A stretch of DNA of 58,448 bases, from NCBI GenBank assembly GCA_035532835.1, contig DATKQG010000011.1:1-58448 (forward strand), in the 5' to 3' direction. Positions 4,605-38,909 of the stretch are shown piece by piece; the stretch's first letter is position 1; each line of letters begins with the position of its first letter. Made by a program: the position numbers and the translations under genes. The notes beneath the pieces were generated by a model. The model ran no database searches. It saw only the letters and a list, made by a program, of their open reading frames with translations, and was not told where the DNA came from. The DNA comes from Candidatus Dormiibacterota bacterium. Lineage in GTDB: Bacteria; Vulcanimicrobiota; Vulcanimicrobiia; Vulcanimicrobiales; Vulcanimicrobiaceae.

Positions 4605-6776
4605 GTGAAAGGCTTCATGACGAGGCCACTCCTCGCCGCGTTGCTCTTGAGCGGTTTCTCGTACTCCTTGACCGGTGCTGCGACGCAGGGTGGATCGCAG
4701 ATTACCAACTCCGCGACCGCAACCTACCAGGATGCGGCACATCGCACATACACGACGTCTTCGAACGCGGTGACGGCGACGGTCGCAAAACTTGCGGCCA
4801 TCGTCGTCTCGCCCAAAGAAGCGGCGCCGATTCCGGCGTCGGAGACGGCGCCCGTGGGCCAGCCGGCGGTCCGCACCTTTGTGGTCACCAACGACAGCAA
4901 CGTCACCGATGCATATCGCGTCACGGCGCTGAGCGCCGGCGCGCTCGCCGCCACTTCGATCGCGTGGATCGGACCGAACGGTGCGATTCCGACGACGATC
5001 GGCGGAGCGATTTCGCCGCAGGTCGTGCCGGGCGCGTCGATGCAGGTGCGGGTAACGATCGATACCTCCGGTATGGCTGTCGGAGCCAAGGTTCCCGTGC
5101 ACATTGTCGCTCAGACGACCGCGGCGGGCACCGTCAACGGTTTGCAAACGGATTCGGGCACGGAATGGATCGTCGGCGCCTCGCCGCCCAAGTTGGTCGG
5201 CCCGGGCGGTGCGAACACGCAAGTGACCAAGACCGTTAACCGCGTGACCGTCGTACAATCGCAGCCGGGTGCGGTCGTCACGTTTTCGATCGACGCCATG
5301 AATAGCGGCGGATCGGCGGCGCAGAACGTGGTTATTTCCGATGCGGTGCCGGCGGGTTTGGGTGTCGACCTTTCGAGCGCCACCATCGACGGGCAGCCCG
5401 CCGGTGCGGCCGCAACCTTGCAGGGACAGACGATCACGATTTCAGTCCCAACGCTGGCACCGGGTGCGACGCTCGACGTTTCGTTCGATGCAAGTGTGCC
5501 GCAGAACCAAATTCTCGGGCTGACGTTTGTGAACGTCGCATCGATCTCCGCAACCGGCGTGCCACCGATTACCACGACGCCAGCCAGCGTGCTCGCGGGT
5601 GCCGCGGATATCGTCTTCGACGGATTTGAAGGCGGCCAACATCCGGTTGCCGATGCGACCGTGACGCTGTTGGACGCGAGCGGGCTGCCGGCACCGCTGA
5701 GTGCGATCAAGAGCACCGCGGAAGCGCGGACGCTCTCGGCGGTCCAGGGCGGTATGCAAAACCCCGATGTCACGGGGAGCGACGGTACCTACGGGTTCGC
5801 GCTGGCGCCTGCGAATATCGCACCGGGCGGCTCGCGTTTGTTCCTGACGATCGTCGCTCCCAATTATCTGAATCGTCGCATTGCGCTCGATATCACGCCC
5901 GGAGCGCAAGGCGTCCTCTATAACGTTACGCAGACCTCGCTCGATGGGCAACCGCTTGCGAAAGCCGGCAGTTTCACGTTGACGACCACCAACGTCGCGC
6001 TGCAAAACGTATTCGGTCTGTTCGGCAACTTGCCGCTCTTTGCAAAGCAGACGATCGACGTCACCAAGAGTGTCGATCGGCAAGCGGCCAGCCCGGGCGA
6101 TCGCCTCCTGTTTACGGTCGCGTTCGCCAATGCGTCCGGATTCGGCATCGGGCCGACGACCGTCACCGATACGCTCCCCTCGGGCATGGCGTACCTCAAT
6201 AGCTCGGCCCGAATGGACGGCGCGGCGATCGAACCGACGGCATCGGGCCGCACGCTGGTGTGGGCGCTCCCGTCGCTCGATCCTGGAACCAAGCACGTCA
6301 TCACGTATGCCGCGACGATCTTTCCCGGCGTCGCGCCGGGTACGAATCTCACCAATACCGTTGTGGTAAGCGGGCACGTCGCAGGCACGGCGCTGACGAC
6401 CTCCGGTTCTGCGACCACGACGGTTGAGGCCACCAGCGGCGTGTTTACGCAGCGCCGCGTCCTTACCGGCCGCGTCTTCATCGACGCACGCGGTACCGGT
6501 TACTTCGTCAAAGGCGATACCGGCGTTCCGGGCGTGCGCATTTATCTCGAAGACGGTTCGTACGTCATCACCGATGCGAACGGCCGTTTTTCGATCCCTG
6601 CCATTCGCCCGGGCGAACACGTCCTGCGCCTCGATCCTGCGACGCTGCCGAAGACCGTGCGCACCGATCTTTCCGAACCGATTACCTCGAACAAAGCGCT
6701 CCAACGCTTGGTGCACGGCATTTTCGACGATGCGTCGATGCAAGACATCGAGTTCGCGTTGGAACCGAAAACGTGA
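4605..6776 (+). CDS. Exported DUF11 protein with C-terminal SdrB-like domain
   Basis: The 723-residue product begins with a signal peptide (cleavage near residue 25) and the QITNSATATYQDA motif shared with the upstream gene. At least two clear DUF11 units are visible, about 206-320 (VTKTVNRVTVVQSQPGAVV, then SIDAMNSGG) and about 482-600 (IDVTKSVDRQAASPGDRLL). Residues about 620-700 match the SdrD B-like/carboxypeptidase-regulatory fold: GRVFIDARGTGYF, GVPGVRIYLEDG, TDANGRFSIPAIRPGEH. The start is GTG 4605; ATG 4617 is an alternative. It overlaps the next gene by 4 bp. In other bacteria DUF11-SdrB proteins occur beside large outer-membrane barrels, as here, suggesting the pair works together at the surface. 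Confidence 0.8.
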   Translation: MKGFMTRPLLAALLLSGFSYSLTGAATQGGSQITNSATATYQDAAHRTYTTSSNAVTATVAKLAAIVVSPKEAAPIPASETAPVGQPAVRTFVVTNDSNVTDAYRVTALSAGALAATSIAWIGPNGAIPTTIGGAISPQVVPGASMQVRVTIDTSGMAVGAKVPVHIVAQTTAAGTVNGLQTDSGTEWIVGASPPKLVGPGGANTQVTKTVNRVTVVQSQPGAVVTFSIDAMNSGGSAAQNVVISDAVPAGLGVDLSSATIDGQPAGAAATLQGQTITISVPTLAPGATLDVSFDASVPQNQILGLTFVNVASISATGVPPITTTPASVLAGAADIVFDGFEGGQHPVADATVTLLDASGLPAPLSAIKSTAEARTLSAVQGGMQNPDVTGSDGTYGFALAPANIAPGGSRLFLTIVAPNYLNRRIALDITPGAQGVLYNVTQTSLDGQPLAKAGSFTLTTTNVALQNVFGLFGNLPLFAKQTIDVTKSVDRQAASPGDRLLFTVAFANASGFGIGPTTVTDTLPSGMAYLNSSARMDGAAIEPTASGRTLVWALPSLDPGTKHVITYAATIFPGVAPGTNLTNTVVVSGHVAGTALTTSGSATTTVEATSGVFTQRRVLTGRVFIDARGTGYFVKGDTGVPGVRIYLEDGSYVITDANGRFSIPAIRPGEHVLRLDPATLPKTVRTDLSEPITSNKALQRLVHGIFDDASMQDIEFALEPKT

Positions 6777-9700
6777 TGCTGCGCGCGTCGTTCGTGCGGC
6801 GTGCCCTCGCCGGCGCGCTCGTCGCGGCGCTGTTTGCGGCGTCGGATCTTCCGGCACGAGCCAGCCGCCGCGATGCTAGCGGGAAAACGATTACCGAACC
6901 GACGCCGCCGCCGGCTTCGCGTACCGTCTACGGCGATCTCTCGCACCTCACGTATACGGCGACCGGCGATCTGCATGCAACGTTCGTGAGCCCGAGCGCG
7001 CAGAGCGCTTCCCCGGTCGACGCGGTGGAAGTGACGGCGGCAACGGTACGCGGCGCGGGCATAGAACTGCGGGCGAACGGCGCGATCGTCGACAGCAAAC
7101 ATTTGGGCAAGCGAACCGTCAACGAAAAGACCGGCCGGACGGAGTATTTCTTTTACGGCGTTCCGCTCGTAGCGGGGCCGAATACGCTGCAGATTACCGC
7201 CCTCGGCGCCGGTGGGCTACGCGGCGATTCGGCGACGCAAGTGGTGTATGGGCCCGACGAACCGGCGAGCGCGAGTGCGGTGTTGGAAGGTGCGCTGATT
7301 GCCGACGGCGTTTCCTCGACGGTTCTGCGCGTGCAGGTACTCGACCGCTTCGGCCACGCGGCTATACCCGGAACGAAATTACGCATCACGATCGCCCGCG
7401 GCGACGCGCACTTTTCTGACCGTGGCGTCCTGCTGCCGGATCCGTTGAGCACCGGACCTCAGGCGGGCGATCCGCATGCGGACGTTACATCATCGCCCGA
7501 TCGCGGAAATCGCGCGCAGGTGGCGAGCGGCCTTGTCTATGAAGGGCCCTTGCCCGTGGGCGGCCTGCAAGACCTGCACGTCGTCCCGGGGACGGTCGCC
7601 GGACCGCTACGCATCGACATCCTCGCGGGCGGCATCACGACGAGCCTCGGCCTCTATATCGCGCCAAATGCGCGCGCTCCATTTGTGAGCGGACTGATCT
7701 CGATTGGTGCGGGTTCGATGCCGGTTGCGGTCGACGGTGACGGCATCTACGATGGCGGTGGCGCGCGCCGCGGCCGTATCGCCATCTTCGGAAACGGGCG
7801 CATCGGCGCATCGTCGGTGTTGACTTTTGCTTACGAATCGCAGAATAGGCTCTCGCCGGTCTCATCCTTTGGCCCGTTTATTCAAGACCCTAACGAGCGG
7901 CCGTATCTCACATACGGCGATTCGAGTGTGGCGGGCGATACGCTCCACTCCGCGGATCATTTCTACGCGCGTCTGGAGCGCGGACGAAGCAGCCTGATGT
8001 GGGGGCAGTTCAACGTCGCGGCTGGCGGCGATACCATCGGGGCCTACCATCAACTGCTCAGCGGGGCAAAGGCCGATCTCACGCTCGGGCGCGATGGACG
8101 CGTGCGTCTGCTCGGATTTACGGCGCGAAACGATCAGGCGTTTGCATCGCTCGTCCTGCCCATCAGCGGCCTGGCGGCGCTCGCGCAGCCATTGGAGCCC
8201 AACATCGTCGTCGGGTCGGATATTCTGCAATTGATCGTCCTGGACCGGCACACCGGCATCGTCATCTCGCAGACGCCGCTGATTCGGAACGTCGATTACA
8301 CCATCGACTACGCAACCGGTGTGCTCCGCTTCATCAACGTGCCGTTGCCATTCGACGCTAATTTCAATCCGCAAGCGATCTCGATTCAATACGAATACCA
8401 GGGCCCCGGCGTCCTCTCGCAGACTACCGGCGCGGGCGTCGAATTGACACTCGGGCGCGACAAAGGTACGAAACTAAAGACCGGCTACGTCAACGACGCG
8501 AGCGGCACCGCGAACTTTTCACTGGTGTCGCAATCGTTTACGCGGACGTGGAACGGCGGGAGTTGGGAGATCGAGCATGCGTCGAATCGCGGCGTAGTTC
8601 CCGGGGTCGTTCAGGCCGTAACCGGCTTACCGGGCGGCGACGCGATCTCGTTCGTCATGCACGAGCAGCACGAAAGCAATCGCTACGATGCGGCCTTTCA
8701 AAAGACCACCGCCGGTTTCGCCGATCCGTTCGGCGGGCTCTCTTCACCGGGGCTCCTTGCCTATCGCTTCGCATGGACGCGGAGCAAGGATCGCACGCAC
8801 TCGTTCTCACTCTCGTTCGACGGGCAGGCCAACCGCGGCGTGGGGCAGGCCAGCGCGCAAACCGACGCCTCGGCGACCTACAACGTCGCGATCGGCAAAG
8901 CGTATGCGCTGCTCTTTGGGCTAACGCAGCACAAACAGAATGCCGCCGCTCCCGCACCGCTGCCCTCCTCGACGCCGGGCGCGATTCCGCTCGCCAACCT
9001 TACGCAGACGCAGGCGGAAGTGGGCATCACATATACGCCGAACAAGCGGTTGGAGATGGATGCCGCGCGTACGCAAACGCTATCGGGGAGCGACGTCGGG
9101 TCGAGCCAGCCATCGGGGACGACGGCACAGGTGAGCTATCGGTTCTCCAAAGTTGGGCGTGCCTATTTGCGCGAATTATGGAGCGCGCAGCCCGCCGCGA
9201 CGTTCGCAAATGCGACATCCGGGTTGGCGCTGGGGGCATCGTCGACCCACATCATGCAATTCGGCATCGAAAACGATCTCTCGCCGACGACCACGGTCGA
9301 TTCGCAGTATATCGTCTCGGGGGTCGGGAGCGCCGCGAACATCTACTCGGCGCTCGGCGTCAACCAGAAGGTGCATCTGGGCAAATATCTCGGCGGTGCC
9401 GTATCGGCCCAGCTCGCGCATGCGATCGGTGGGACGGCATCGGGGTTTAACGTGTACACCGCATCGCTCGCGTATGCGCGCGAGAACGGCATTCATGCGG
9501 CGCTCGCCTATCAGGACCGAACCGGTGCCGGCGGCGGCTCGACGATCGGCATGGGCATCACCGGTAAGCTCTCCTCGGAAGTCTCGGTCTTGGGCCGTAT
9601 CTCGCGCGCATACGGTAATGGCAGCAACGCGATCGACGATCGCATCTCGATGGCCTATCGCCCAACCCAGAACGATCGCTTCACCTCACTCTTTGGTTAC

Positions 9701-10120
9701 CAGCGCACCAACGACGGCAGTTCCACGCCGGGTTCGGCGAGCGTGGTGTCGTTCGAGGAGCTGTATCGCCCCATCGAGACGCTCGAATTCGCTAGCCGCG
9801 TTGCATACAAACTCGATAACGGCGGCGCCTATGCCGCGCGGACGACGTATCTCTCGCTACGCGCGCGCAAGAGTATCGGTCGACGCTTCGATATCGGCGC
9901 TGCAGTACGAACGATCGCGATTCCCCAGGCCGCTCAAGCGCGCGCGACGGACTTCGCCGTCGAAGCCGGCTATGCGGTCGGATCGAGTTCGCGCGTTGCC
10001 GTGGGCTATAATTTCTCCGGGAGCGTCGATCCGACGCTGACGGGTCATCCCGATCGTAAGGGCGTCTACGTGATGCTGACTTCGCTGGTCGACCGGGTCT
10101 TCGGATGGGGGAAGCCGTAA
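6773..10120 (+). CDS. Predicted outer-membrane beta-barrel with N-terminal Ig-like domains
   Basis: The 1115-residue protein has a signal peptide (about 1-31), an Ig-like region (about 60-170; GIELRANGAIVD, VAGPNTLQITAL), a bacterial-Ig/invasin-like region (about 177-290; ADGVSSTVLRVQVLDRFG) and a long C-terminal part (about 320-1115) of alternating hydrophobic strands. The barrel part carries YLTYGDSSVAGDTLHSADHF and VLDRHTGIVISQTPLIRNVDY, a pattern seen in large surface barrels next to DUF11/SdrB proteins in other phyla. The start is GTG 6773 or ATG 6776, overlapping the previous stop. It is the only evident membrane component of this operon and so the best candidate for exporting or anchoring its partners. 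Barrel identity is a prediction from strand pattern. Confidence 0.7.
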   Translation: MMLRASFVRRALAGALVAALFAASDLPARASRRDASGKTITEPTPPPASRTVYGDLSHLTYTATGDLHATFVSPSAQSASPVDAVEVTAATVRGAGIELRANGAIVDSKHLGKRTVNEKTGRTEYFFYGVPLVAGPNTLQITALGAGGLRGDSATQVVYGPDEPASASAVLEGALIADGVSSTVLRVQVLDRFGHAAIPGTKLRITIARGDAHFSDRGVLLPDPLSTGPQAGDPHADVTSSPDRGNRAQVASGLVYEGPLPVGGLQDLHVVPGTVAGPLRIDILAGGITTSLGLYIAPNARAPFVSGLISIGAGSMPVAVDGDGIYDGGGARRGRIAIFGNGRIGASSVLTFAYESQNRLSPVSSFGPFIQDPNERPYLTYGDSSVAGDTLHSADHFYARLERGRSSLMWGQFNVAAGGDTIGAYHQLLSGAKADLTLGRDGRVRLLGFTARNDQAFASLVLPISGLAALAQPLEPNIVVGSDILQLIVLDRHTGIVISQTPLIRNVDYTIDYATGVLRFINVPLPFDANFNPQAISIQYEYQGPGVLSQTTGAGVELTLGRDKGTKLKTGYVNDASGTANFSLVSQSFTRTWNGGSWEIEHASNRGVVPGVVQAVTGLPGGDAISFVMHEQHESNRYDAAFQKTTAGFADPFGGLSSPGLLAYRFAWTRSKDRTHSFSLSFDGQANRGVGQASAQTDASATYNVAIGKAYALLFGLTQHKQNAAAPAPLPSSTPGAIPLANLTQTQAEVGITYTPNKRLEMDAARTQTLSGSDVGSSQPSGTTAQVSYRFSKVGRAYLRELWSAQPAATFANATSGLALGASSTHIMQFGIENDLSPTTTVDSQYIVSGVGSAANIYSALGVNQKVHLGKYLGGAVSAQLAHAIGGTASGFNVYTASLAYARENGIHAALAYQDRTGAGGGSTIGMGITGKLSSEVSVLGRISRAYGNGSNAIDDRISMAYRPTQNDRFTSLFGYQRTNDGSSTPGSASVVSFEELYRPIETLEFASRVAYKLDNGGAYAARTTYLSLRARKSIGRRFDIGAAVRTIAIPQAAQARATDFAVEAGYAVGSSSRVAVGYNFSGSVDPTLTGHPDRKGVYVMLTSLVDRVFGWGKP

Positions 10121-27081: not shown

Positions 27082-28512
27082 TCAACCCTTGAGGCTTGCC
27101 CCGCCGCCGCCGAAGGATCCGATGAGGAGGTTGGTGAGCCCCGAGGCCGAGACTTCGATCTGCGCGAGCAGCTTGCTACCGACCTGCGTGAGGATTTGCT
27201 GCTTGGTGAAATCGGTGACCGTCGCGCCGATATTCGCGTCGCGAATGTTGCTGACCGTCGTCGTCAGGTTGAGGGCGGCAACCGAATCGTTGGCGCCGTC
27301 TTCTTGCAGCGAAACCGCCTGCGCTCCGACCACCGCGCGCACCGCGTTGACTTGTTGCAGCGCGGCATCGACGCGAATTTCCGCATCGCCGGCCGGGACG
27401 ACGTTGCTGGAATTCTGCCCGATGATTTGGTTGTAAAGGTTCACATCGGCGGTCGGCAGTACGGAGATGTCGCTGATGTTGAGCGCGTTCGTGCTGACCG
27501 ACGGAATGTCGATCGGGACGATCGTACCTTCTTGGCCGCCGTCGTTGACGCTGAGCGCTTGGCCACTCGGATTGGTGGGCGTACCGTCCGTACTGATGAA
27601 CGCGATCGTCGCGCCCACATCCGCTTGGGTGAGATTCGCGATCGTGAAGTTGAAGAGGCTTGCGCCCGGAGCTCCGCCGCCGCTCGTATAGGAGCCCGGC
27701 GTGGCGTACGATGATGTAATCGGGCCCGAATTGATCGGGACGGCTTCTTGATCGATAAAGGTCGGCGCGGCACCCATCGACGGCGATTTACTGTACGCGG
27801 TGAATTGCACGAGCACGCCGGGCCCAACGTTGATGCCGGTGTTCGGATCGATCTGGTTGGCGCTGTAGCTAAGAACTTGAAAAATCATCAGAGCCGGTGT
27901 AAACGAACCGACCGGTGGAACGCCCGGCGACCCCGGGGTCCCATCGCCCGGGACAACGAGCGGGCCGGGGCCCGAACCGTATCCGGGGAGTTGCGAATCG
28001 ACGACCGTGGACGTGCCGGCATAACCGCCCGGCGCGAGGATGAGATTGTCCACTTGCGTCGCGCCGTACGGAACGCTGGAAATTCCCTGGCCCGTATCGT
28101 ATTTGCCGCTAAGCAGTGAGAGGCCGTTGAACGTGGTGTTCTGCGAAATCTTGTTGATTTCGAGCAGCAGCTGATCGATTTCCGTTTGGATGTTTTGGAC
28201 ATCGTTCAGCGAGTTGATATCGCTGCGCGACTCAACGATGAGCGATCGGATGCGCTGGAGGATCATTTCGACGTTGCTGAGTGCGCCGTCCACGACGTCG
28301 AGCAAGTTGTTTGCCGTCTGGACGCTCTGCACCGACTGCTGCAGCCCGTTGATCTTGGATTGGATCGTTTGCGCGATCGCGTAACCGCTGGGGTCATCGG
28401 CAGCAGAATTCACACGCAAGCCTGTTGCTAGCGTGTGAGCGTCCGTACCTAAATTATTTTGAACCAGAGAGAGATTCCGTAGAATCAATCCCGAGCTCCC
28501 CAGCACATCCAT
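27082..28512 (-). CDS. Flagellin with long variable centre
   Basis: The 476-residue protein has conserved D0/D1 ends of flagellin: N-terminal about 1-140 with NLGTDAHTLATGLRVNSAADD and PSGYAIAQTIQSKINGLQQS, and C-terminal about 385-476 ending FTKQQILTQVGSKLLAQIEV. The centre (about 145-380) is a Gly/Pro-rich beta domain I do not recognise, presumably surface-exposed. No hook, chaperone or other flagellar gene is adjacent, so this is a stand-alone filament gene. A sigma-28-like promoter (28556-28583) and a leader with five GGA motifs precede it. The ribosome-binding site AAGGAGG is 14 bases from ATG 28512, longer than usual. Confidence 0.93.
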   Translation of the reverse strand: MDVLGSSGLILRNLSLVQNNLGTDAHTLATGLRVNSAADDPSGYAIAQTIQSKINGLQQSVQSVQTANNLLDVVDGALSNVEMILQRIRSLIVESRSDINSLNDVQNIQTEIDQLLLEINKISQNTTFNGLSLLSGKYDTGQGISSVPYGATQVDNLILAPGGYAGTSTVVDSQLPGYGSGPGPLVVPGDGTPGSPGVPPVGSFTPALMIFQVLSYSANQIDPNTGINVGPGVLVQFTAYSKSPSMGAAPTFIDQEAVPINSGPITSSYATPGSYTSGGGAPGASLFNFTIANLTQADVGATIAFISTDGTPTNPSGQALSVNDGGQEGTIVPIDIPSVSTNALNISDISVLPTADVNLYNQIIGQNSSNVVPAGDAEIRVDAALQQVNAVRAVVGAQAVSLQEDGANDSVAALNLTTTVSNIRDANIGATVTDFTKQQILTQVGSKLLAQIEVSASGLTNLLIGSFGGGGASLKG

Positions 28513-28646: not shown

Positions 28647-31600
28647 ATGGGAAGTTGCGTGGTCCGGCGTAGGCGCCGCTTGGTCGGCCGTCTGCTCCAG
28701 TGTCTTGGTGCGGGAACGATGCTGATAGGGTTACTCTATGCGGCCGCTTTTCGTACCCCCGCCTATGCCGCCATCATGGCACCCGTCGATCGCCTTGTTC
28801 GCTCGTTTGCCTCGACTGTGGCGATCGTTCCGGTCGCCAGCCCATCGCCGAGCCCATCGCCTTCGCCGTCGCCCGCGCCCGGAGGCATCGTGCTCCCGAA
28901 TGCGACCCCCACGCCGAAGGCCTACCGGGCTACGCGGGGCGGACCCCTCGAGTTCGGCCTTTCGGGCAGCCTTTCGTTCGGCTCGCGTTCCATCAGCTCG
29001 ACGCAATACAGTCCCTTCGGCGTGGCCAGCCCATCCCCGAGCGCCAGCCCGTCGGAGTTCATCGGCTCCACGTTCACGACGAATCAGTCGCTCGCCCAAG
29101 AGTCGGTGGGGATGCTTGCCGAGCTGACTCGGCGCACCGGAAGCACGATGACCGACATCAAGCTGCCGCTCGGGTTCGGCAGCCAGGGGACGCAGCTCGG
29201 CTTGGTACAGGCGATTTTTTCGACCCCGAAGTACGCGATTGGATACGGCTCGCAGGTGCTGACGCTCTTCGGGCAGATCCCGGCGGGCGGAACGCAGCGG
29301 GGCCCGTTCATGATCGTGCCCCTGCCGGCCGGCGACGCCACCTTTTATGAAGGCCCGGCGATCGGGGCGCTCTCGGAGACGGTGCCGCTCTACGGCGTTC
29401 GCATCCGCCACCTCGGGAACGGCGCGCTCTACGAAGCCGGCTTGGCCTTCGCGAACGGGCTGGAAACCGGAAAATCGGTGACCGCGATTTTGGGCGGGGC
29501 GGCGTCTCGAGGGCCGTTGACCCTCACCGGCGAGGCCGCGGCGCAACACCGGCAGGGGGGCGACGCGAATGCCTCCGGCCTCACCTATCAACTGCGTTTG
29601 GATGACGGCGGCACGAACACGTACGTGACCGCGATCCTGCGCCACGTGTCCAACAACTTCGTTGCGTTCGGTAATGGGGAGATCTACGGGGACGATTACG
29701 AAGATTTCGGATATCACAAAAACGCGACGCTGCAGAATTTTTCGTTCGACATCAGCCGCGAGCGGATCGGGAATACGCTCGGCGGAGCATCGACGAACCG
29801 CCAGGAATCGATGACCTACGGCGGCCCGGCGCGCTTCGGCCAATATACGGTCAGCCTGCAATCGCAGAATACGGGGGGCTCCGGGCTTACCTCGCAGTGG
29901 ATCGGGACCGCGATCGGGCAGTTTTCGGCGAACCTCGGCCATGGATTTTTGCTGCTCGGATCGCAGGCTTCGCGCACGACCCAATCTTTCGGCGGGGACG
30001 TCGGCAGCTCGGGCTTCAATGCGTCGCTCGAGGAGCCGCTCGGCTCGATCACGTTCGGCGCTTCGTATCAGGCCTATCGGCAGATCTCGCAACTCTACGG
30101 GCGCACGACTATTGCGTCCGAAGGTTTCAACGCGACGCGGACGTGGGGACGCACCTCGCTCGGGCTCTCGGAGACGTTCTCGCACACGTACAGCGCGCAA
30201 TCCGCGGCGGTGCAGACCAATCCGCTCTTTACCGTGACGCGTCAAATATCTCCGGTGATCTCGGTCCAAACCTCGATCGGATATCAGACGCTGCGCGACC
30301 CGCTCAACCCGGCGGCCAACGGCAAATCGCGAACGTTCAGCTTTCAGATCAACGCGCCGTTCAGCTACGGAAACAGCATCGTCACCGGCCGGAGCGACGC
30401 GCGGCTTCCGGCAACGATCGTCGGCAAAGTGCTTACGGACGCGGGCACGAATGCGAGCTTCGCCGGCCTCGCGAGCAGCGGCGTGAGCAATATCCTGATC
30501 GTGCTCGACAACCAGACGATTCAACGCACCGATGTAACCGGCGGCTTCCAATTCTCGTTCGTCACGCCGGGTCAGCACCAATTGCGGATCGAGAATTCGT
30601 CGCTCCCGCGCGGGGTGACCGCCGACCAACCCATCGCAACCATCAGCGTCCTGGGCGGCCAAACCGCGCAGGTTATCTTCCAGGTCGGGAACTTCGGCGG
30701 CATCAGCGGGCACGTCTACGGCCGCGACGATACCGGCGCGATCGTTCCGCTGCCCAACGTCCTGCTCCGCGTGGACGGGGGCGCCTACTCGCAGACCGAC
30801 GGCGCCGGAGCGTACGGCTTCGGGCGGCTTCGCCCCGGCAAGCACACGGTCACCATCGTGCCGCAGTCGGTTCCCGCCTTCGCGTCGTTCAGCAAAGCCT
30901 CCGAAACGGAGGTGGTTCAGGTGCACGATGGCGTCTACACGCCGCTCAACTTCGATGCCGAGCCGCTAGGATCGATCTCCGGTTCGATCATGTTCGCTCC
31001 GGAACTCGCCTCGGAGAACATGACCGGCCCCGTGCCCAACGCCTACGTCGTAGCGGAGCCCGGCGAACATGCGGCGATCGTGGACGACGGCGGCGACTTC
31101 ATCATCGACAACCTTCCGCCGGGCGATTACACCGTCTCCGTCGATCCGGAGACGCTTCCCGATGGAACGGGCGCTACGCCGGATAGCGTGCCGGTCGCGC
31201 TGGGATCCGAGGAGCACTATCACGGGCTGCGTTTCTTGGTTGGGCATGCGCAGAAGAAGGTGGTGTTCTCGTTCCTCGGAAGCGGCGCGACCGCTTCGGC
31301 GCCCGCGCAGGTGCAGTTGAGCGAGCAGCGCCTTCCGCCACACGGCATCGCGAGCGTCAGCGTCGACGCTCCCAAGAGCGCCGAACGCGTCCGGCTCGAG
31401 GCCTTCGGAGCATTGCGCGACCTCGTGTACGACGATCGCCGCAGCGCGTGGGTGGGGGACGTCATCGTGCCCGCTACCGCGAAGGCGGGAACGTACACCA
31501 TCGCGGCGACGGTCGGGTCCGGGACCAAGCCGGCCTCGGCGAAACTCGTCGTCGATCCAAAGATGCCGATTGCGATCTTGCAGGTGCAGCCTGCTAATGC

Positions 31601-31808
31601 GATCGTCGGCCAGTACGTTCGCGTCCGCGCGCGCTTCCTGGTGGACGTGCGGGAAGGCGATCGCATCGAGTGGCAGGACGGCACCACGACGATTCTGGGC
31701 AAACCCGTGGTCGGGCGCATCTTTACATTCAGCCTGCGTATTTCTTTACGCCCTCTGCACGGAGTACTGCTAACCAAGGGCTCGCGCTTGCCGATAAGTT
31801 TAATGTAA
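28647..31808 (+). CDS. Predicted outer-membrane beta-barrel with carboxypeptidase-regulatory-like repeats (usher-like role inferred)
   Basis: The 1053-residue protein has an Arg-rich start with signal/membrane segment (about 1-41, ending AYA), a Ser-Pro linker (about 65-76), a long beta-strand region (about 95-580) consistent with a large barrel, then beta-sandwich repeats: about 589-690 (IVGKVLTDAG, VTGGFQFSFVTPGQHQLRIE), 690-780 (GISGHVYGRDDTGAIVPLPN, AYGFGRLRPGKHTV) and 785-870 (DFIIDNLPPGDYTVSVDPE), and a final domain to about 1010. It heads an operon with a chaperone and pilin-like proteins, the position of an usher in chaperone-usher loci, but I see no recognisable FimD motif. The last twelve codons contain the promoter of the next gene. 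The start is weakly supported (no good ribosome-binding site). Confidence 0.65.
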   Translation: MGSCVVRRRRRLVGRLLQCLGAGTMLIGLLYAAAFRTPAYAAIMAPVDRLVRSFASTVAIVPVASPSPSPSPSPSPAPGGIVLPNATPTPKAYRATRGGPLEFGLSGSLSFGSRSISSTQYSPFGVASPSPSASPSEFIGSTFTTNQSLAQESVGMLAELTRRTGSTMTDIKLPLGFGSQGTQLGLVQAIFSTPKYAIGYGSQVLTLFGQIPAGGTQRGPFMIVPLPAGDATFYEGPAIGALSETVPLYGVRIRHLGNGALYEAGLAFANGLETGKSVTAILGGAASRGPLTLTGEAAAQHRQGGDANASGLTYQLRLDDGGTNTYVTAILRHVSNNFVAFGNGEIYGDDYEDFGYHKNATLQNFSFDISRERIGNTLGGASTNRQESMTYGGPARFGQYTVSLQSQNTGGSGLTSQWIGTAIGQFSANLGHGFLLLGSQASRTTQSFGGDVGSSGFNASLEEPLGSITFGASYQAYRQISQLYGRTTIASEGFNATRTWGRTSLGLSETFSHTYSAQSAAVQTNPLFTVTRQISPVISVQTSIGYQTLRDPLNPAANGKSRTFSFQINAPFSYGNSIVTGRSDARLPATIVGKVLTDAGTNASFAGLASSGVSNILIVLDNQTIQRTDVTGGFQFSFVTPGQHQLRIENSSLPRGVTADQPIATISVLGGQTAQVIFQVGNFGGISGHVYGRDDTGAIVPLPNVLLRVDGGAYSQTDGAGAYGFGRLRPGKHTVTIVPQSVPAFASFSKASETEVVQVHDGVYTPLNFDAEPLGSISGSIMFAPELASENMTGPVPNAYVVAEPGEHAAIVDDGGDFIIDNLPPGDYTVSVDPETLPDGTGATPDSVPVALGSEEHYHGLRFLVGHAQKKVVFSFLGSGATASAPAQVQLSEQRLPPHGIASVSVDAPKSAERVRLEAFGALRDLVYDDRRSAWVGDVIVPATAKAGTYTIAATVGSGTKPASAKLVVDPKMPIAILQVQPANAIVGQYVRVRARFLVDVREGDRIEWQDGTTTILGKPVVGRIFTFSLRISLRPLHGVLLTKGSRLPISLM
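31771..31797 (+). promoter_or_regulatory. Sigma-28-type promoter for the pilin operon
   Basis: TAAC (31771-31774), a spacer of exactly 15 bases, and GCCGATAA (31790-31797). The -10 is a perfect match and the -35 has one mismatch to the FliA consensus TAAA-N15-GCCGATAA. It lies inside the 3' end of the barrel gene and 66 bp before the first pilin-like gene, giving a leader of about 60 nt. Confidence 0.7.
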
Positions 31809-31863
31809 CCCGCTTTAGAACTTTGCCACGGATGGCACTCTCGCGCATGGTGAAATAAGGACG

Positions 31864-32562
31864 ATGAACATTAAGAAATTTGCAGCACTCGCATCCTTTG
31901 CAGCAGTGCTCGCCACCACAGTGGCACCCGCGTATGCGGCTAACCCGACCGGAACGGTCACGATCAAGTGGAACACCCAATCGATCGCCACGATGACCCT
32001 GACGACCAACTACTCGGCGACCGGCGCCCAGGGCCTCGGCGCCCCGGCGATCTTTCAGAACACCAACGGCGGCGCAGCCAGCGCCGGATGCACGGCTGCC
32101 GGCGCCGGCAGCGAAGTTGCTTCGACCGTGAACTTCGGCAACGTCACCCCGGACTCGGCGAAGTACGTCGATTGCCTCTACGACAACGGCATCAATGCCG
32201 CCGTCGCGACGAACGATACGCTCGGATACGCCGTCAACGTTCAAGAGACGACCGCACCTACGAGTCCCGGCAGCTACATGCTGTGTCTCCTGCCCAACGG
32301 CACGTACAGCAATACGGGCGCGGTTGCCCAAAGCACGCGCACGACGAATGCTTCGGTAACGTCGATCGTCACGACGACGGCCAGCGGTACTTCTTGCGGC
32401 GCAGGTAACACGACCATCTGGGGAACGACGCAGGCCCTGTACACGAGCGCAGCCTCGACCGCCGGCGCAAACTTCGGCGCCGACGTCGAACTCGTGATCG
32501 CTCCGAACGCGCCGACCGGCGCAAACTCGGGCGTCGTCACCTACACGATGGCCCTCAACTAG
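31864..32562 (+). CDS. Secreted pilin-like subunit
   Basis: A 232-residue protein with a signal peptide (about 1-25, ending AYAA) and an all-beta, Thr/Ala/Asn-rich mature part. Shared features with the 224-residue protein at 33482 are VTIKWNTQSIATMTLTTNYS (there VTIKWQAQAIVNVTLTSNYA), a V-N-F-G-N-V turn near the middle, and a C-terminal VTYTMALN strand. The same FG(N/S) turn and terminal Y-T strand end the large adhesin, so these look like homologous subunits of one fibre. Four Cys residues could form two disulfides. A ribosome-binding AAGGA precedes ATG 31864 and a sigma-28-type promoter lies upstream. No known pilin family could be assigned. Confidence 0.7.
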   Translation: MNIKKFAALASFAAVLATTVAPAYAANPTGTVTIKWNTQSIATMTLTTNYSATGAQGLGAPAIFQNTNGGAASAGCTAAGAGSEVASTVNFGNVTPDSAKYVDCLYDNGINAAVATNDTLGYAVNVQETTAPTSPGSYMLCLLPNGTYSNTGAVAQSTRTTNASVTSIVTTTASGTSCGAGNTTIWGTTQALYTSAASTAGANFGADVELVIAPNAPTGANSGVVTYTMALN

Positions 32563-32592
32563 TCTCTGAAGGGTAACGTACCGCTTTGTCAC

Positions 32593-32610
32593 GGGGCCGC
32601 TTGCGGCCCC
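32593..32610 (+). promoter_or_regulatory. Strong intercistronic hairpin between pilin and chaperone genes
   Basis: GGGGCCG pairs with CGGCCCC around CTTG with no T-run after it, 30 bp past the pilin stop and 17 bp before the chaperone start. It most likely stabilises the upstream mRNA end or attenuates read-through, which would keep pilin in excess over chaperone. An intrinsic terminator is unlikely without the T-tract. Confidence 0.45.
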
Positions 32611-32627
32611 ATGGCGAAGAGGCCGAC

Positions 32628-33425
32628 ATGATGCAGACACGACGCATTGCCGTACTAGTTGGCCTGCTGGCGGTGGCGGCACTGATCCCAACCCCGGCCG
32701 GTTCGGTCGGACTAGGGCTCTCGGTGACACCCGGCAAGTTCGAAGTCTCGATCCCCTTGGGGACGACCTACAACGTACCGGTCACCGTTCAGAACTCCAA
32801 CTTCTCCTCGACGCACGTGCAGGCGACCATGGTGGATTTCGGCCTCTCGCAAAGCGGCAACTACGAATTCGGCAAGGTTGGTTCGCGACCGTACTCGCTC
32901 TTGAAGTGGGCCGCGATTCGCCCCCGTGAATTCGATATCGCTCCCGGAACCTCGCAGCAAGTTCAATTGACGCTGGCCATTCCGTCCAACCAACATCTCA
33001 CGGGCGAATACGCCGGCATCATTTTCTTCCAAACCCGGCCGGAACGCAAACCCGGACAGAACGTAGCATTCTCCGTTCGCGTGGCCTCAAAGATTTACGA
33101 AACGATTCCGGGCACGGTCAAGATTGAAGGAGCGATCGTCAAGATGACGAGCGCGAAGACGCCAGATGGCCAGATCTTCCGGGTGCTCTTCAAAAATACC
33201 GGAAACGCGCACGTCTATCTGCGCGGCCAAATAACGGTACAGAAAAACGGTGCATCGGTATACCAAACCGCGATGCCGGACAACTTATTGGTAGAACGCG
33301 GCGGCGAGCGCGATGTCGAGGTGCGGGGTAAAGCCCTTCCACCCGGCTCGTATCAGGCCATCGCCACGATCGACTACGGCGGAAAAAACGAAACCGGCGG
33401 CGAGATCAACTTCGAAGTTCATTAG
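32628..33425 (+). CDS. PapD-like periplasmic pilus chaperone
   Basis: The 265-residue protein has a signal peptide (about 1-26) and two Ig-like domains. The first (about 28-150) begins LSVTPGKFEVSIPLGTTYNV and contains FDIAPGTSQQVQLTLAIP and TGEYAGIIFF, followed by the G-strand-like VAFSVRVASKIYETI; the second (about 150-265) contains FRVLFKNTGNAHVYLRGQITV. This two-domain layout with an alternating hydrophobic strand before the hinge is that of chaperones which donate a strand to pilin subunits. Length is close to the family's 220-250 residues. It sits between pilin-like genes. ATG 32628 follows GAAGAGG; the longer frame is not needed. Assignment is to the fold class, with partner specificity inferred from context. 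Confidence 0.7.
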   Translation: MMQTRRIAVLVGLLAVAALIPTPAGSVGLGLSVTPGKFEVSIPLGTTYNVPVTVQNSNFSSTHVQATMVDFGLSQSGNYEFGKVGSRPYSLLKWAAIRPREFDIAPGTSQQVQLTLAIPSNQHLTGEYAGIIFFQTRPERKPGQNVAFSVRVASKIYETIPGTVKIEGAIVKMTSAKTPDGQIFRVLFKNTGNAHVYLRGQITVQKNGASVYQTAMPDNLLVERGGERDVEVRGKALPPGSYQAIATIDYGGKNETGGEINFEVH

Positions 33426-33432
33426 CCGCACA

Positions 33433-33456
33433 CCACGCAGGATGGAGCTTGCGTGG
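33433..33456 (+). promoter_or_regulatory. GGA-loop hairpin in pilin leader
   Basis: CCACGC pairs with GCGTGG around the loop AGGATGGAGCTT, which shows two GGA triplets, the first in the same C-AGGAT setting as the loops of the repeated elements. It lies 26 bp before the pilin start. A CsrA-type site is a hypothesis. Confidence 0.4.
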
Positions 33457-33481
33457 AACAGGGAGTGTATAGGAAGCGCAG

Positions 33482-34156
33482 ATGAAAAGGTTTACTCGGC
33501 GGTCGATAGCAGTAGGAGGCGCCCTTTTGGCAGCGCTCGCTGCGCTCGGCCCCGCCCGCGCAGCCGCTCCCTCAAGCCCGGTCACGATCAAGTGGCAGGC
33601 GCAAGCGATCGTCAACGTCACGCTAACGAGCAATTACGCGACCGGCTACGGCTCGGTCAAGGCGGTGTTCGGTACGCAACCCGCACCTACGCACGGACCC
33701 GACGCAACCGGCCCCGGGACGCCGATCGATTTCGGCTCGGTGCTGGCCGGCAACACGTATCTGTATAAGTATGCGGCGCACGTGAACGTCGTCACCAACT
33801 CTTCGACCGGATTTGATCTGTACGGCGAAGGCGCCGCGGATTTCTTTAACACGGTAGATAGCTCGACGCAGACGCTCAACCAAACGCTCTACTACGTCAA
33901 CTCAACCAGCGGCTCTCCGGCGGATAGCAACACCGGCTTCTCGCCCGGACTGCCGTTCTATCGGACCGCCGGTGCGGTTACCGGTAACGGGCAATTCACG
34001 ACGCCGTCGATTTCGTACACGACCTATCCCTCCCCGATTGCCGCCGATGCGGCCGCGACGGGCGACTTCTACTACGACTACCAGATGAAGGTGCCGCCGA
34101 CAGCAACCAGCGGCCTGTACTACGTTTGGATCGTCTATACGGTGGTGCCTAAATGA
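33482..34156 (+). CDS. Secreted pilin-like subunit (paralogue)
   Basis: A 224-residue exported protein (signal about 1-28, ending RAAA) clearly related to the product of 31864: VTIKWQAQAIVNVTLTSNYA near the mature N-terminus, IDFGSVLAGNTYLYKYAAHV in the middle and IVYTVVPK at the end. The mature part is about 195 residues of beta-structure without cysteines. Start ATG 33482 follows AGGAAG. It overlaps the next gene by 4 bp. In a chaperone-assembled fibre it would be a minor or shaft subunit; which of the three pilin-like proteins is the main one cannot be told from sequence. Confidence 0.7.
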   Translation: MKRFTRRSIAVGGALLAALAALGPARAAAPSSPVTIKWQAQAIVNVTLTSNYATGYGSVKAVFGTQPAPTHGPDATGPGTPIDFGSVLAGNTYLYKYAAHVNVVTNSSTGFDLYGEGAADFFNTVDSSTQTLNQTLYYVNSTSGSPADSNTGFSPGLPFYRTAGAVTGNGQFTTPSISYTTYPSPIAADAAATGDFYYDYQMKVPPTATSGLYYVWIVYTVVPK

Positions 34157-34845
34157 CGATCGTTATGCGGCGGATGCTCATCGCTTTTGCGATATTGGCA
34201 TTGCTTCCCGTAGCCGTACAAGCGCTCTTCGTTCAGCAGCGCGACCAGATCGGCGTGACGATCGTGGTCAACGTCGCTCCGCCGCTTGCCGTCAATCTGC
34301 ACGCGCCGAACGCGGCATCGGGAGGGGTCTTTGGCACGCTCGCGCTCGCCGGCGCGACCGGCAAAACGTCGTTTCATGCGGAGAGCCTGCATTTCGAACG
34401 GACCTCGATGCTCGTCGCCCAAGGCAGCCAGAGGGCGGTAAAAGTGGAGGCTGAGGTCTCTCCAAACCCCTTGGCAACCCTGCTGTACAGCGATCAGAGC
34501 CTGGTGACGGTGAACGTCGCCGCCGGACAAAGCATCACGGTTCCGTGCGCGTACCACGTCACCGTCGATACGACCCAAACCTATTGGCAGCTCAAGGATG
34601 GCTTGGGGACCGACTTTTACGGATCGACCTTTCCTGGAAAGGACGTCGGGCGCGACAATTACCTTGCGACCCCTCATCCCACATCTTCGCCGTTTGCCGT
34701 CTACGCCGATGACAGCAGCATGTGGACGCTGGTCGATACCAATACGCTTAAGAAAACCTATTGCGTCTCCTTAACGGTCAGCGTTCCGATTAGCGTTCCG
34801 GCCGGTTCCTATAGTTCCAACGCGATCTACACGGTGTACTACTGA
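34153..34845 (+). CDS. Exported pilin-like protein
   Basis: A 230-residue protein with a signal or anchor (about 1-25; AFAILALLPVAVQA) and a beta-rich mature part. It differs most from the other pilin-like products but keeps the same general layout, with GVTIVVNVAPPLAVNLHAP near the start and a closing strand ending AIYTVYY. Its two Cys residues are far apart in sequence. It overlaps both neighbours (ATGA at 34153 and TGATG at 34845), so its amount is coupled to them. It could be an adaptor between fibre and tip adhesin. Homology to a known family is not established. Confidence 0.65.
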   Translation: MTIVMRRMLIAFAILALLPVAVQALFVQQRDQIGVTIVVNVAPPLAVNLHAPNAASGGVFGTLALAGATGKTSFHAESLHFERTSMLVAQGSQRAVKVEAEVSPNPLATLLYSDQSLVTVNVAAGQSITVPCAYHVTVDTTQTYWQLKDGLGTDFYGSTFPGKDVGRDNYLATPHPTSSPFAVYADDSSMWTLVDTNTLKKTYCVSLTVSVPISVPAGSYSSNAIYTVYY

Positions 34846-37800
34846 TGCGTCATCTGCGCGGAGCCTGGCTCTTCGTTCTCATCGCCTTCATCGCGTTAGC
34901 CGCGACGGCGTTCGCGCAGGTGCGTGGGGTACCTCCGCACGAGCCGATCGTCCGCGTCACGATGCCGCCCGTGACGGTGACGATGCCTCCGATCGGCCGC
35001 CCGATCGGCCTGCCTTCCGCGCCGGGCGTTTCCACCTCGAACTCACAGTACATCGGTGTAGTCCCGCCGGGCACGAAGGTTCCGCTGTCGCGGCTACCGA
35101 TGCTGCCGCGTGCAAGCACGCTCAACACCGTCACGCCGAAGATGGCGCGCGCACGCGTGCATCCGCTGGCAGCTAACGGTGCGTACATCGATATTTCCAA
35201 CACCAACTGCTTTACGCAAGGCGCGCTCGGCGATAATTTTAACGTAGGTTGTGCCTTGCAATGGTATGCGGCGAGCATGCCTGCAGGTGACACGTATCAG
35301 GATTATTACGTTTTCTCAACTAACGGCAACGAGCTAAACGCCGGCGCCACAGCGGTCGGCGGAGCGCACGGTAGCGGGAACGGCCCGGGGCGTTCGACGA
35401 CGCTGAGTGCTGCCGGGACGTACATTTTCGGTACCTACGATGTGACGAAAGGGCAATGGGCGGCAATCATCTATGTGAATGCAGGCCAGGTGTTCTCGAT
35501 CAAGGTCTATCAGGACTCGTTCCATTCGCAAGAGACGTACCAATTCGATGCCGGTACCAGCAACAACGCCTATATTTACCTTCAAAATGTCTCGCAGTCG
35601 GACTACTACGTCGTCGGCATCACGCAAACGTCGGTAGCGCCGAACTGTGTCTTTATCGCTCCGGCTCCGCTTCCCGCACCATATACGCCGCCCGCGAACC
35701 AGCTATGCGCTCTGACGGCATCGACCGGCATCCAGGCTCCGGGAGGAAATCTTTCGGTCACGTGGCCGATCGGCCCGACGCTCAAATCGGGGATCTATTC
35801 GATCGAAGTCTACGACCTTACCCAGGGCGTTCGACTCGGACAAGTGCAGGTTTCGCTGACGGGCTCAAGCGGCTTGGTATTGATCACGCGTGCGGATGGA
35901 ACCGGCGCAAACATCAATCCATCCCCCGCGCCGATCCCGGCGCCGACCCCGGCGACTATCATTGCGTGGGACGGTAACAATCCCATCGATGAATCGGCGA
36001 CCGGCGTGAGTGCGTCGATTTCCGGCGCGAGCAACGGCTCGAATTACAAGTGGACGCTCAGCGACCCGCAAGGGCAGGTGCTTTCGACCGCTGCCGGGAC
36101 GATCGCCGGGAATGCCGGCAGCCACGTCTTTACGTTCGACAACACCAACATGCTGCAGCCCGGAAGCTACCCCTCGCACACGTTTACGGTCCAGTTGTAC
36201 GATACGACGAACAACGACGTCGTGGCATCGCAGAGTTTTCAGGTACTCGGTTACTCCACGACGACGCAATTCAACAACGCCGGCACGCTCGGTTCCACGG
36301 TGGCCATCACGCCGAATAGCCAGGTCACCGAAGGGATTCGTTTTACGAATAACGGCGGTGGAATTTACAACGGGTTTGGCGATAATCTCAGTAAGATCAT
36401 TTTCACTACCGGACCGGATTTTAACGTCAGTAACACGACCGGAAACGGAATCATGATGTCCGTGGTGAACGGCGCCACCAATCCCTGCGGCTTATGCTCG
36501 ACCACCACGACCGACTCTAGTGGTAACACGTGGAACGCGACGGTAACGTGCAGCGCAACCACGAAACAAAAAAATGGCGAGTGCAATCTTGAGCTCGACC
36601 CGGCAAGCACTAGCACGACCCTCGCTCCGGGCGCATATATCAATCTCAATAACGTCACGTTTTTTAGCTCGACAGGAGCGACGTGCGGCAACTCATGCCA
36701 GGCGCTAACGTCGGAATTTCCTCAACACGGTCTTACTTGGTCGAATACGACGAGCGCTCTCGCATGGCAGCCGGTGTATTTCCGGAACTCGTCTGCTTCC
36801 GAGAGCGGCACGGCGATGTTTCAACTCGTCGGCTCGCTCAATCAAGGCAACTACAATCTAAACCCCGGGCCGCCGTTTAGCGCTCCGTTCGTCGGTACGC
36901 ATTATTTCCTCAATCCGTTTATGCAAGCCGATTACAATAACAATTCGCCGTACAACGTCCCCGTCTCGCTCACCAACCAAAACGCCTCCAATCAGGACAT
37001 CGCCCTGTTTACCATAAAAAACACCGGGACGAATGTTATTTCGCGGGTGGCGATTGAGCTGCCGCCGTTGTACTTGAACCAGGGCATCTATGCACTCGAC
37101 GGTGCGACTCCGGGCGCGTGGTTCGTGGCCGCCTGCCCAGCCAATTTTAGCGTCCAGTGGATCTGCCTCAACAACGGTAACGTAAAGGCCGGAAACTCGG
37201 ATTACATCTATCTCGATCTGACGATGACGCTGCAGAGCTTTCCGTTCCAAGATATCGCCATGCAGGCCTACGCGAACAACCAATGGTTCGCAATGACGCC
37301 GGCTGCCGGGGCGAATACGACTCCGGACGGCTTGAATACGCTGGATAATCTCTCGTTCGGAGTGTATTCGCTGGTGGGTTCCGACATGACGACGTATTTT
37401 TCGCCGTCGACGGTAGGCCAGGGTTCTACGGCAACGCTCGGAGCCCAAGTGCAGAACACCTCGACATCGGTGGATCCCAACCCCGATTCGCTCGATATCG
37501 TCGTTTTGGAAGCCCCGAGCACCGGACTCACCCTGAGCTCTACTCCAAGCGTGACACCTGCGGGCTGGAGCTATCTCGGGCAGTTCAAGAAAAATGGCGC
37601 GACGGCGACGCAGTACTGGTTCGGGCTTTGCACCAATCAGTTCAACGGGGCCAGCAACGGCACGTACGCCGGGCCGCCGACGGCGAACGGTGCGTCGGGC
37701 GTGCCGTTAACGAATCCCTATCCGTCGCCTCCGCCATGTACGGGCGCGCAAGAAATCAACGCTGCGCGTCCTGGGGCGAAGGTGACGATCTCGAACATGC

Positions 37801-38909
37801 AGTTCACCAATTTCAATACCAACGGTGTGCAGACGTGGAAGATGTACGCTCACGGCGCCGATGCCGGCGGCTGGTCTGCCGGGCAACCGTTCTCGCTAAC
37901 GGTCACACCCGAGTCGGCTTCGATCTGGTTCAATCAGGTCAACGGCGTGGTAACGCCGACGAACACCGTCCCGACGATCGGCGGCAGCCCGAACACTTAT
38001 CAGTACGCGGTGAAGAACACCAGCCAAACCTCGAATATTTCCACGACGATCATCACGATTCCGGGCCTGGACGTGAACAATCAGAACGCGACCGACCCGA
38101 GCGGAAACACGTGGAACATCACCAACATCGCGAGCGGCGGCGTAACCCTCAGTGCGCCCGGCGGCCAGGCCGACGGTATCGGCGGTTGCGTGGTTGATAC
38201 GAGCGCGACCAAGACGTTCAACCCGACGACCGCTGGAGCGAACGGGCAGATCACGCTCGACGGATGCACGAATTTCAAACCCGGCGACACCATTTACGCC
38301 AACTTCACCGCCGCCAATCCGGAAGTGCAGAGCGATAGCTACGTCTTCCCGGCGACGGTGGACGGAAGCAACGCCGGTGCGGCATGGCTGGGCGCCGACG
38401 AAATCAGCGAGTCGTTCAAGATCGGCCTCGATATCATCGTGGATCCGAGCAACCCCGGGCCCGGCGGGTCGACGCCGGTAGTCAATTGCGGTAACCCGTG
38501 CGCTTTCTCGGGCACGACCGTCGACTTTGGGAACATCGCGAACAATACCGCATTCAATTTCCTCGACGTCGTGCGTGCGAGCGTCTATTACACCGGCGCG
38601 ACGACTCCCGGCCACGATCTACTCTTGCAGGTGAGCGCGAACAGCAATCCCACGAATTCGACCGGAACGCCGACCAATGAGATGCTGACGGATATCGACA
38701 GTACGAACTCGACGCAGGGGGCCGGTATAGGTTTTAGTCAGACCACGATGGCGGTTGTCCCAACGAGCGGCGGACTCTTGGTCGGTACGGTTCCGGAAAC
38801 CAACCGCTCGACGCCGTACGATCTGATCCAGAACTACCGGATCGCCATCGGCAACGAAACGATCACGGCCCACGTCGTCACCGTGACCTATACGCTGATC
38901 CCGAACTAA
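34845..38909 (+). CDS. Giant exported adhesin with pilin-like C-terminus
   Basis: A 1354-residue protein with a signal peptide (about 1-24), a short Pro-rich stretch (about 25-75; VTMPPVTVTMPPIGRPIG) and many beta-sandwich repeats of 80-130 residues through the body, Asn/Thr/Ser-rich, several with NNGGG or NTSQTS turns and Cys pairs. The C-terminal about 135 residues resemble the pilin-like proteins of the same operon (TTVDFGNIANNTAFNFLDVV then a final VTYTLIPN), while the N-terminal body has no such match. A large adhesive region joined to a pilin-type domain is the layout of two-domain tip adhesins, although there the pilin domain is also C-terminal but the adhesin domain is far smaller. 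Last gene of the operon; ends convergently on a DUF4149 gene. Confidence 0.72.
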   Translation: MRHLRGAWLFVLIAFIALAATAFAQVRGVPPHEPIVRVTMPPVTVTMPPIGRPIGLPSAPGVSTSNSQYIGVVPPGTKVPLSRLPMLPRASTLNTVTPKMARARVHPLAANGAYIDISNTNCFTQGALGDNFNVGCALQWYAASMPAGDTYQDYYVFSTNGNELNAGATAVGGAHGSGNGPGRSTTLSAAGTYIFGTYDVTKGQWAAIIYVNAGQVFSIKVYQDSFHSQETYQFDAGTSNNAYIYLQNVSQSDYYVVGITQTSVAPNCVFIAPAPLPAPYTPPANQLCALTASTGIQAPGGNLSVTWPIGPTLKSGIYSIEVYDLTQGVRLGQVQVSLTGSSGLVLITRADGTGANINPSPAPIPAPTPATIIAWDGNNPIDESATGVSASISGASNGSNYKWTLSDPQGQVLSTAAGTIAGNAGSHVFTFDNTNMLQPGSYPSHTFTVQLYDTTNNDVVASQSFQVLGYSTTTQFNNAGTLGSTVAITPNSQVTEGIRFTNNGGGIYNGFGDNLSKIIFTTGPDFNVSNTTGNGIMMSVVNGATNPCGLCSTTTTDSSGNTWNATVTCSATTKQKNGECNLELDPASTSTTLAPGAYINLNNVTFFSSTGATCGNSCQALTSEFPQHGLTWSNTTSALAWQPVYFRNSSASESGTAMFQLVGSLNQGNYNLNPGPPFSAPFVGTHYFLNPFMQADYNNNSPYNVPVSLTNQNASNQDIALFTIKNTGTNVISRVAIELPPLYLNQGIYALDGATPGAWFVAACPANFSVQWICLNNGNVKAGNSDYIYLDLTMTLQSFPFQDIAMQAYANNQWFAMTPAAGANTTPDGLNTLDNLSFGVYSLVGSDMTTYFSPSTVGQGSTATLGAQVQNTSTSVDPNPDSLDIVVLEAPSTGLTLSSTPSVTPAGWSYLGQFKKNGATATQYWFGLCTNQFNGASNGTYAGPPTANGASGVPLTNPYPSPPPCTGAQEINAARPGAKVTISNMQFTNFNTNGVQTWKMYAHGADAGGWSAGQPFSLTVTPESASIWFNQVNGVVTPTNTVPTIGGSPNTYQYAVKNTSQTSNISTTIITIPGLDVNNQNATDPSGNTWNITNIASGGVTLSAPGGQADGIGGCVVDTSATKTFNPTTAGANGQITLDGCTNFKPGDTIYANFTAANPEVQSDSYVFPATVDGSNAGAAWLGADEISESFKIGLDIIVDPSNPGPGGSTPVVNCGNPCAFSGTTVDFGNIANNTAFNFLDVVRASVYYTGATTPGHDLLLQVSANSNPTNSTGTPTNEMLTDIDSTNSTQGAGIGFSQTTMAVVPTSGGLLVGTVPETNRSTPYDLIQNYRIAIGNETITAHVVTVTYTLIPN

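Follow-up and report, generated by a model that had tools for sequence, protein, structure and literature searches.

The window analysed here is the whole 58,448-nucleotide stretch of contig DATKQG010000011.1, and all coordinates are positions in it. An operon at 28647-38909 (+) probably encodes a divergent fibre system of the chaperone-usher (CU) type, which would work by donor strands and is restricted to one order of Eremiobacterota. We hold this reading with moderate confidence. It is built on the computed gene content and synteny of the operon, on the family relations of its chaperone and of the C-terminal domains of its outer-membrane barrel, and on a barrel predicted to have about 24 strands. 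Because the chaperone and these C-terminal domains align with bona fide CU proteins of the same phylum, a system that diverged is favoured over one that evolved independently. An earlier note on this DNA, made from the sequence alone, had offered both origins, and the second of them has lost ground.

Gene organization and conservation of the operon

Six open reading frames (ORFs) on the same strand encode, in this order, the barrel, subunit 1, the chaperone, subunit 2, subunit 3 and the adhesin. The gaps between them measure tens of bases or are replaced by small overlaps, and the description of one operon with these six components, given in the earlier note, holds. Single-sequence searches of Pfam, NCBIfam and the PDB returned only CarboxypepD_reg in the barrel and a weak WxLIP match for the chaperone; Pfam gave nothing convincing for the other operon proteins, and NCBIfam nothing useful among the six. 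A scan for promoters and terminators gave a signal no better than shuffles.

Synteny of these genes extends to about 30 further Eremiobacterota genomes or loci, so the operon is not a chance cluster. We compared the surroundings of chaperone homologues in the window's family and in four genomes that belong to a second family of its order. Barrel, chaperone, subunits and adhesin stayed linked across loci; a divergent flagellin came first, then barrel, subunit and chaperone, followed by either subunit-subunit-adhesin or adhesin-subunit-subunit. Chaperone homologues were present in 40 of the 99 genomes of the window's family. Of 149 genomes of the phylum, 41 have a full-length barrel (score above 500 bits); 37 of these belong to the window's family and four to the second family of the order. 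A scan of GTDB genome contigs with one short peptide pattern, which was not exhaustive, retrieved only records named Candidatus Eremiobacterota, WPS-2 or bacterium MAG. One genome carries a second copy of the system (L035:5884-18246), with two chaperones, two subunits, an adhesin and the barrel in last position, and without a flagellin neighbour.

Chaperone, subunits and adhesin

The periplasmic chaperone (32586..33425, +), with two immunoglobulin (Ig)-like domains, was assigned by hhalign, by its anchor residues and by Pfam WxLIP_PGBD; its true start is probably the ATG at 32628. The profile of its family aligned with a profile of 24 CU chaperones, 10 from K-12 and 14 from the phylum, with an hhalign E-value of 5e-9 over 157 columns. 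About 40 column shuffles gave a minimum of 0.1 and the reversed profile gave 0.41. When 40% of the sequences were dropped (jackknife), the median was 6e-8 and the worst value 2.5e-6. The K-12 CU proteins alone were too distant to decide, and the picture changed once CU operons of the same phylum were added. Compared with a profile of eight WxLIP sequences from Gram-positive plasmids, the chaperone family aligned over 220 columns, covering both domains (E = 5e-8). Pfam WxLIP_PGBD was matched by 33 of 35 chaperone homologues (best 2.1e-7) and PapD_N by none of the 35, and the best PDB sequence match of the chaperone was EfmWxLIP1 (E = 0.0013). At the level of profile-profile alignment only, the chaperone is therefore related to the PapD family, and it sits between the CU and WxLIP families, about equally close to each. 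The PapD-like chaperone of the earlier note is thus borne out by profile comparison and not by Pfam.

In an alignment with FimC, Arg8 is matched by residue K37 of the chaperone (counted from the ATG at 32628), and K155 is placed one residue off Lys112, within the strand donated by FimC. Both anchor positions are occupied by lysine or arginine in 29 of 29 core chaperones, and neither is in six members of a related group. The Arg8/Lys112 cleft of CU chaperones anchors the C-terminus of the subunit (PMC6838868), and judged from the alignment the basic residues found here may do the same job.

Subunit 1 (31864..32562, +; 232 aa), a Cys-containing protein known from its ORF and translation, and subunit 2 (33482..34156, +; 224 aa) belong to one homologous family. 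The AlphaFold2 (AF2) model of subunit 2 is a beta-sandwich (pLDDT 84) with its last strand at the C-terminus and a conserved, unpaired N-terminal VTIKW segment, which is the look that would be expected of a donor-strand subunit; CU pilins (Caf1, FimG, CsuA/B, PapA) are frequent among its weak Foldseek matches (0.04-0.2). The giant adhesin-like protein (34845..38909, +; 1354 aa) carries the subunit module in its C-terminal ~130 residues, where hhalign against the module of the small proteins gave E = 5e-9 (minimum of 30 column shuffles, 0.1). Subunit 3 (34153..34845, +; 230 aa), the start of which overlaps the stop of subunit 2, was placed by family alignment and is weakly related to subunits 1 and 2 (hhalign E = 1.4e-4, null minimum 0.2); it has no D/N-FG turn. 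The module that the earlier note had attributed to all of these proteins is thus solid for two small proteins and the adhesin, and weak for the third. The terminal Y-T strand that it had also pointed out is the last strand of all four, each of which ends directly after it (VVTYTMALN, WIVYTVVPK and NAIYTVYY in subunits 1, 2 and 3, respectively). The adhesin family has conserved cysteines; the adhesin matched no Pfam or PDB family, its part outside the C-terminal module matches no known family, and PDB profile searches with the subunit and adhesin alignments gave no matches. WxL domains and SCPU/FimA pilins were both rejected as identities for the subunits, for want of profile or Pfam support.

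The matches of the chaperone to WxLIP bring in another explanation, namely that the system is a two-membrane counterpart of WxL clusters, in which the WxLIP-like protein would stay bound to the small and large module proteins and keep them in a non-polymeric surface coat, and the barrel would serve only as export channel or anchor. The gene logic fits, as small module proteins, a large protein with a C-terminal module and a WxLIP also make up WxL clusters (PMC10599100), and the profile, Pfam and PDB results for the chaperone given above point the same way. However, the subunits showed no detectable similarity to WxL domains (hhalign E = 0.014-0.016; WxL Pfam in 0 of 54 subunits), and the conserved W-x-L pair is absent from their alignment. 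No WxLIP-type C-terminal membrane helix is apparent in the chaperone sequence, which ends in a beta-strand-like stretch, and its basic residues fit a CU chaperone. To our knowledge, Gram-positive WxL clusters contain no barrel, and their hosts have no outer membrane. We therefore consider a WxL counterpart unlikely.

WxLIP profiles (L061-L068) were also compared directly with the pooled CU chaperones and gave E = 7e-7 (shuffles minimum 0.16). With subsets of the CU chaperones the values were only 0.013-0.057, and the jackknife was unstable (worst 1e-3); a common origin of WxLIP and CU chaperones is possible on these alignments. A stretch of a plasmid labelled Klebsiella pneumoniae (CP069367.1, 102183-102474) is 74% identical to an Enterococcus WxLIP, and the record is probably mislabelled or contaminated.

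The outer-membrane barrel and its possible relation to ushers

The usher-like barrel (28647..31808, +; 1053 aa) was characterized by AF2, Foldseek, Pfam CarboxypepD_reg matches and hhalign comparison with ushers. The AF2 run, made on a 29-sequence alignment (mean pLDDT 78, pTM 0.54), predicted a signal or transmembrane helix at about residues 1-34, a disordered Pro/Ser-rich linker (35-98) and a large antiparallel beta-barrel (~101-575) with 23 long strands and one short one, about 24 in all. Small CarboxypepD_reg/transthyretin-like beta-domains follow at ~590-870, and further beta-domains extend to residue 1053. Between barrel strands 3 and 4 lies a conserved stretch of ~50 residues with short strands (about residues 181-228), which may be a candidate for a plug like that of ushers. 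The CarboxypepD_reg repeats (PF13620, E = 2.8e-13) are present in 29 of 29 homologues, and the model and the Pfam match together agree with the earlier description of an outer-membrane barrel with carboxypeptidase-regulatory-like repeats. Ushers consist of a 24-stranded barrel, a plug, an N-terminal domain and two C-terminal domains (PMC8410936).

When the barrel model was compared with the PDB by Foldseek, ranks 1-7, 9 and 11-14 went to FimD/PapC (E-values from 3e-16 to 8e-10), and the first non-usher barrel in the list was a porin (4.5e-7); the lead of FimD/PapC arises from the barrel and the beta-domains combined. By hhalign, the match of the transmembrane part to ushers had an E-value of 2.7e-4, with a minimum of 0.46 for shuffles and 0.027 for the reversed profile, and unrelated single barrels matched it at 0.016 or worse. 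The C-terminal domains aligned with the C-terminal domains (CTDs) of same-phylum ushers at E = 2e-11 (shuffles minimum 0.038) and with those of K-12 ushers at 6e-4 only. Over the whole protein, a co-linear alignment with ushers spanned 394 columns (E = 1.4e-12).

Genuine ushers do occur in the phylum: PF00577 was detected in 23 of the 149 genomes, with no match anywhere in the genome of the window. Six of these ushers were tested by Pfam and all matched PF00577, some together with PapC_C or a weak PapC_N; two adjoining chaperones matched PapD_N, and two subunits matched SCPU. In nine genomes a PF00577 usher and a barrel of the window's type occur together, at separate loci, which sets the system of the window apart from the canonical CU systems of its phylum.

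Several results weigh against a CU-type system. Against the K-12 CU chaperones alone, the hhalign value of the chaperone was 1.3e-3 only. In Foldseek, the barrel reached TM-scores of only 0.2-0.28 of the query, at an rmsd of about 20 A, and usher structures made up of the barrel alone (2e-7 to 5e-6) scored like porins. The transmembrane match became poorer (median 1.4e-3) when sequences were omitted. PF00577, PapC_N and PapC_C were unmatched in 29 of 29 barrels, in keeping with the earlier remark that no clear usher signature is present. The AF2 model has no folded domain N-terminal of the barrel, residues 35-98 being of low confidence or disordered, so the usual chaperone-recruiting domain is missing. 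An unrelated CarboxypepD_reg segment, at the end of 4605-6776, matched the C-terminal part of the barrel protein at 3e-9. The C-terminal match of 2e-11 was for this reason rejected as proof of an usher; it assigns these domains to a superfamily to which usher CTDs also belong. As for the subunits, their profiles gave E = 0.3 against FimA-type pilins and 0.24 against same-phylum SCPU pilins, and the subunit 2 model had no Foldseek match below 1e-3.

A further explanation is a barrel of porin type, unrelated to ushers and recruited with its repeats to a PapD/WxLIP-type chaperone in an independently evolved system. The missing usher Pfam matches, the likeness of barrel-only ushers and porins in Foldseek and the generic CarboxypepD_reg family of the C-terminal domains are all in line with this origin, as is the pairing of related chaperones with other barrel types in the lineage. 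The transmembrane match to ushers, however, is weak and yet non-random (2.7e-4 vs 0.46) and is co-linear with the C-terminal match, and about 24 strands are predicted in the barrel. We regard a porin-type origin as rather improbable.

We thus retain the CU pattern recognised in the earlier note as a working model, in view of the chaperone, of FimD/PapC as best matches of the barrel and of the terminal strands. Three qualifications apply: the chaperone is equally near WxLIP, the C-terminal match is partly generic to carboxypeptidase-regulatory/transthyretin-like domains, and the subunits have no sequence homology to CU pilins. The system is not classed as a full CU member, because no N-terminal usher domain was found and the barrel and subunit tests were not decisive.

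Elsewhere in the window, two adjacent genes at 4605-10120 (+) encode a 723-aa protein of Ig-like/DUF11-looking repeats with a C-terminal CarboxypepD_reg-like segment, and a 1115-aa protein that looks like another beta-barrel.

Proposed assembly, flagellin neighbour and related systems

In the divergent CU-type system that we propose, the subunits, the chaperone and the adhesin would be exported to the periplasm, where the two-domain Ig-like chaperone would lend a donor strand to every incomplete Ig-like subunit, thereby capping it, and would hold its C-terminus through two basic residues that correspond to Arg8/Lys112. Capped subunits would then be handed to the outer-membrane barrel. Recruitment must differ from that of ushers, since the N-terminal usher domain is absent, and the subunits are perhaps docked by the C-terminal beta-domains of the barrel. 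Subunits would be linked by strand exchange, to which the next subunit contributes its conserved N-terminal segment, and the thread would leave through the barrel. At its tip, as adhesin, would sit the 1354-aa protein, which has a single C-terminal subunit module. CU systems are known to work by donor-strand complementation and exchange (PMC8410936, PMC9452303), and strand insertion by WxLIP, completing the WxL sandwich, has been predicted (PMC10599100). Strand donation is the best-supported step, because strands are described as being donated by the two families to which the chaperone is related; like this step, strand exchange, polymerisation into a fibre, secretion through the barrel, the tip position and adhesion are inferred. 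A tentative and rather doubtful extension is that the system represents a separate donor-strand class, with a platform without the usher N-terminal domain and with a chaperone linking PapD and WxLIP, which would imply that CU pili and WxL surface complexes go back to one ancestral strand-donating chaperone.

If fibres are assembled in this way, the CU family would be widened to a platform without an N-terminal recruiting domain, which raises the question of how subunits are recruited, and the mostly uncultured Eremiobacterota would gain a specific candidate for adhesive structures. The position of the chaperone between PapD and WxLIP suggests a common origin of two surface-assembly strategies usually held to be unrelated.

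A divergently transcribed flagellin gene (27082..28512, -; Pfam Flagellin_N/C) neighbours the operon and is not claimed as a component. Such a gene adjoins the barrel in 31 of the 32 loci in which the side upstream of the barrel could be read (27082-28512 in the window, and L022-L034, L036-L038, L040, L042, L044-L046, L048-L050, L052, L053 and L137-L140). As the operon almost always adjoins a flagellin gene, it could serve the flagellum, for example by coating or modifying the filament, instead of building a separate fibre. Yet transcription of the flagellin gene leads away from the operon, three further Flagellin_N matches and two FlhA-family genes lie elsewhere in the genome, and none of the six operon proteins resembles a flagellar component in Pfam or NCBIfam. 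A flagellar role appears highly improbable to us, and the conserved neighbour invites study of a swim-or-stick switch.

Other operons of the lineage pair a related chaperone with a barrel that has CarboxypepD_reg-like C-terminal domains (L039, L054-L057; L058/L060); these barrels are shorter than that of the window, their N-terminal regions differ, and no giant adhesin of the window's family accompanies them. A second operon type, found in the same family, consists of a chaperone, a small protein and a barrel of 696-778 aa (L039:9750-13195, L055:3151-6805, L054:5582-9028, L056:8570-14457, L057:7256-11241); of three barrels scanned, two gave a weak Cu_amine_oxidN1-like match at the N-terminus. 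Its chaperones (six aligned) have neither anchor residue, and as a group they match WxLIP at 1e-9 and CU chaperones at 5e-11. A third type (L058:6278-10164 and L060:9463-13454) combines a chaperone-related protein of ~420-430 aa with a barrel of 877-899 aa carrying SdrD_B/CarboxypepD_reg repeats.

With the Gram-positive WxL clusters, the system of the window shares small module proteins beside a large protein with a C-terminal module, and its chaperone is homologous to WxLIP (DUF916/DUF3324) over both domains. It differs from them in having an outer-membrane barrel, a module not detectably WxL and a chaperone in which the membrane helix is not apparent. Compared with CU pili (FimC/FimD, PapD/PapC and the archaic Csu/SCPU systems), the window barrel lacks both an Usher Pfam match and a folded N-terminal domain, and it has more C-terminal beta-domains than CTD1/CTD2; the subunits are not detectably homologous to FimA/SCPU pilins, and the adhesin is several times larger than FimH. 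The likeness to CU pili lies in the chaperone profile and the basic residues at or next to Arg8/Lys112, in a large outer-membrane barrel followed by small beta-domains, and in a single operon that joins several small exported subunits with one adhesin carrying the subunit module at its C-terminus.

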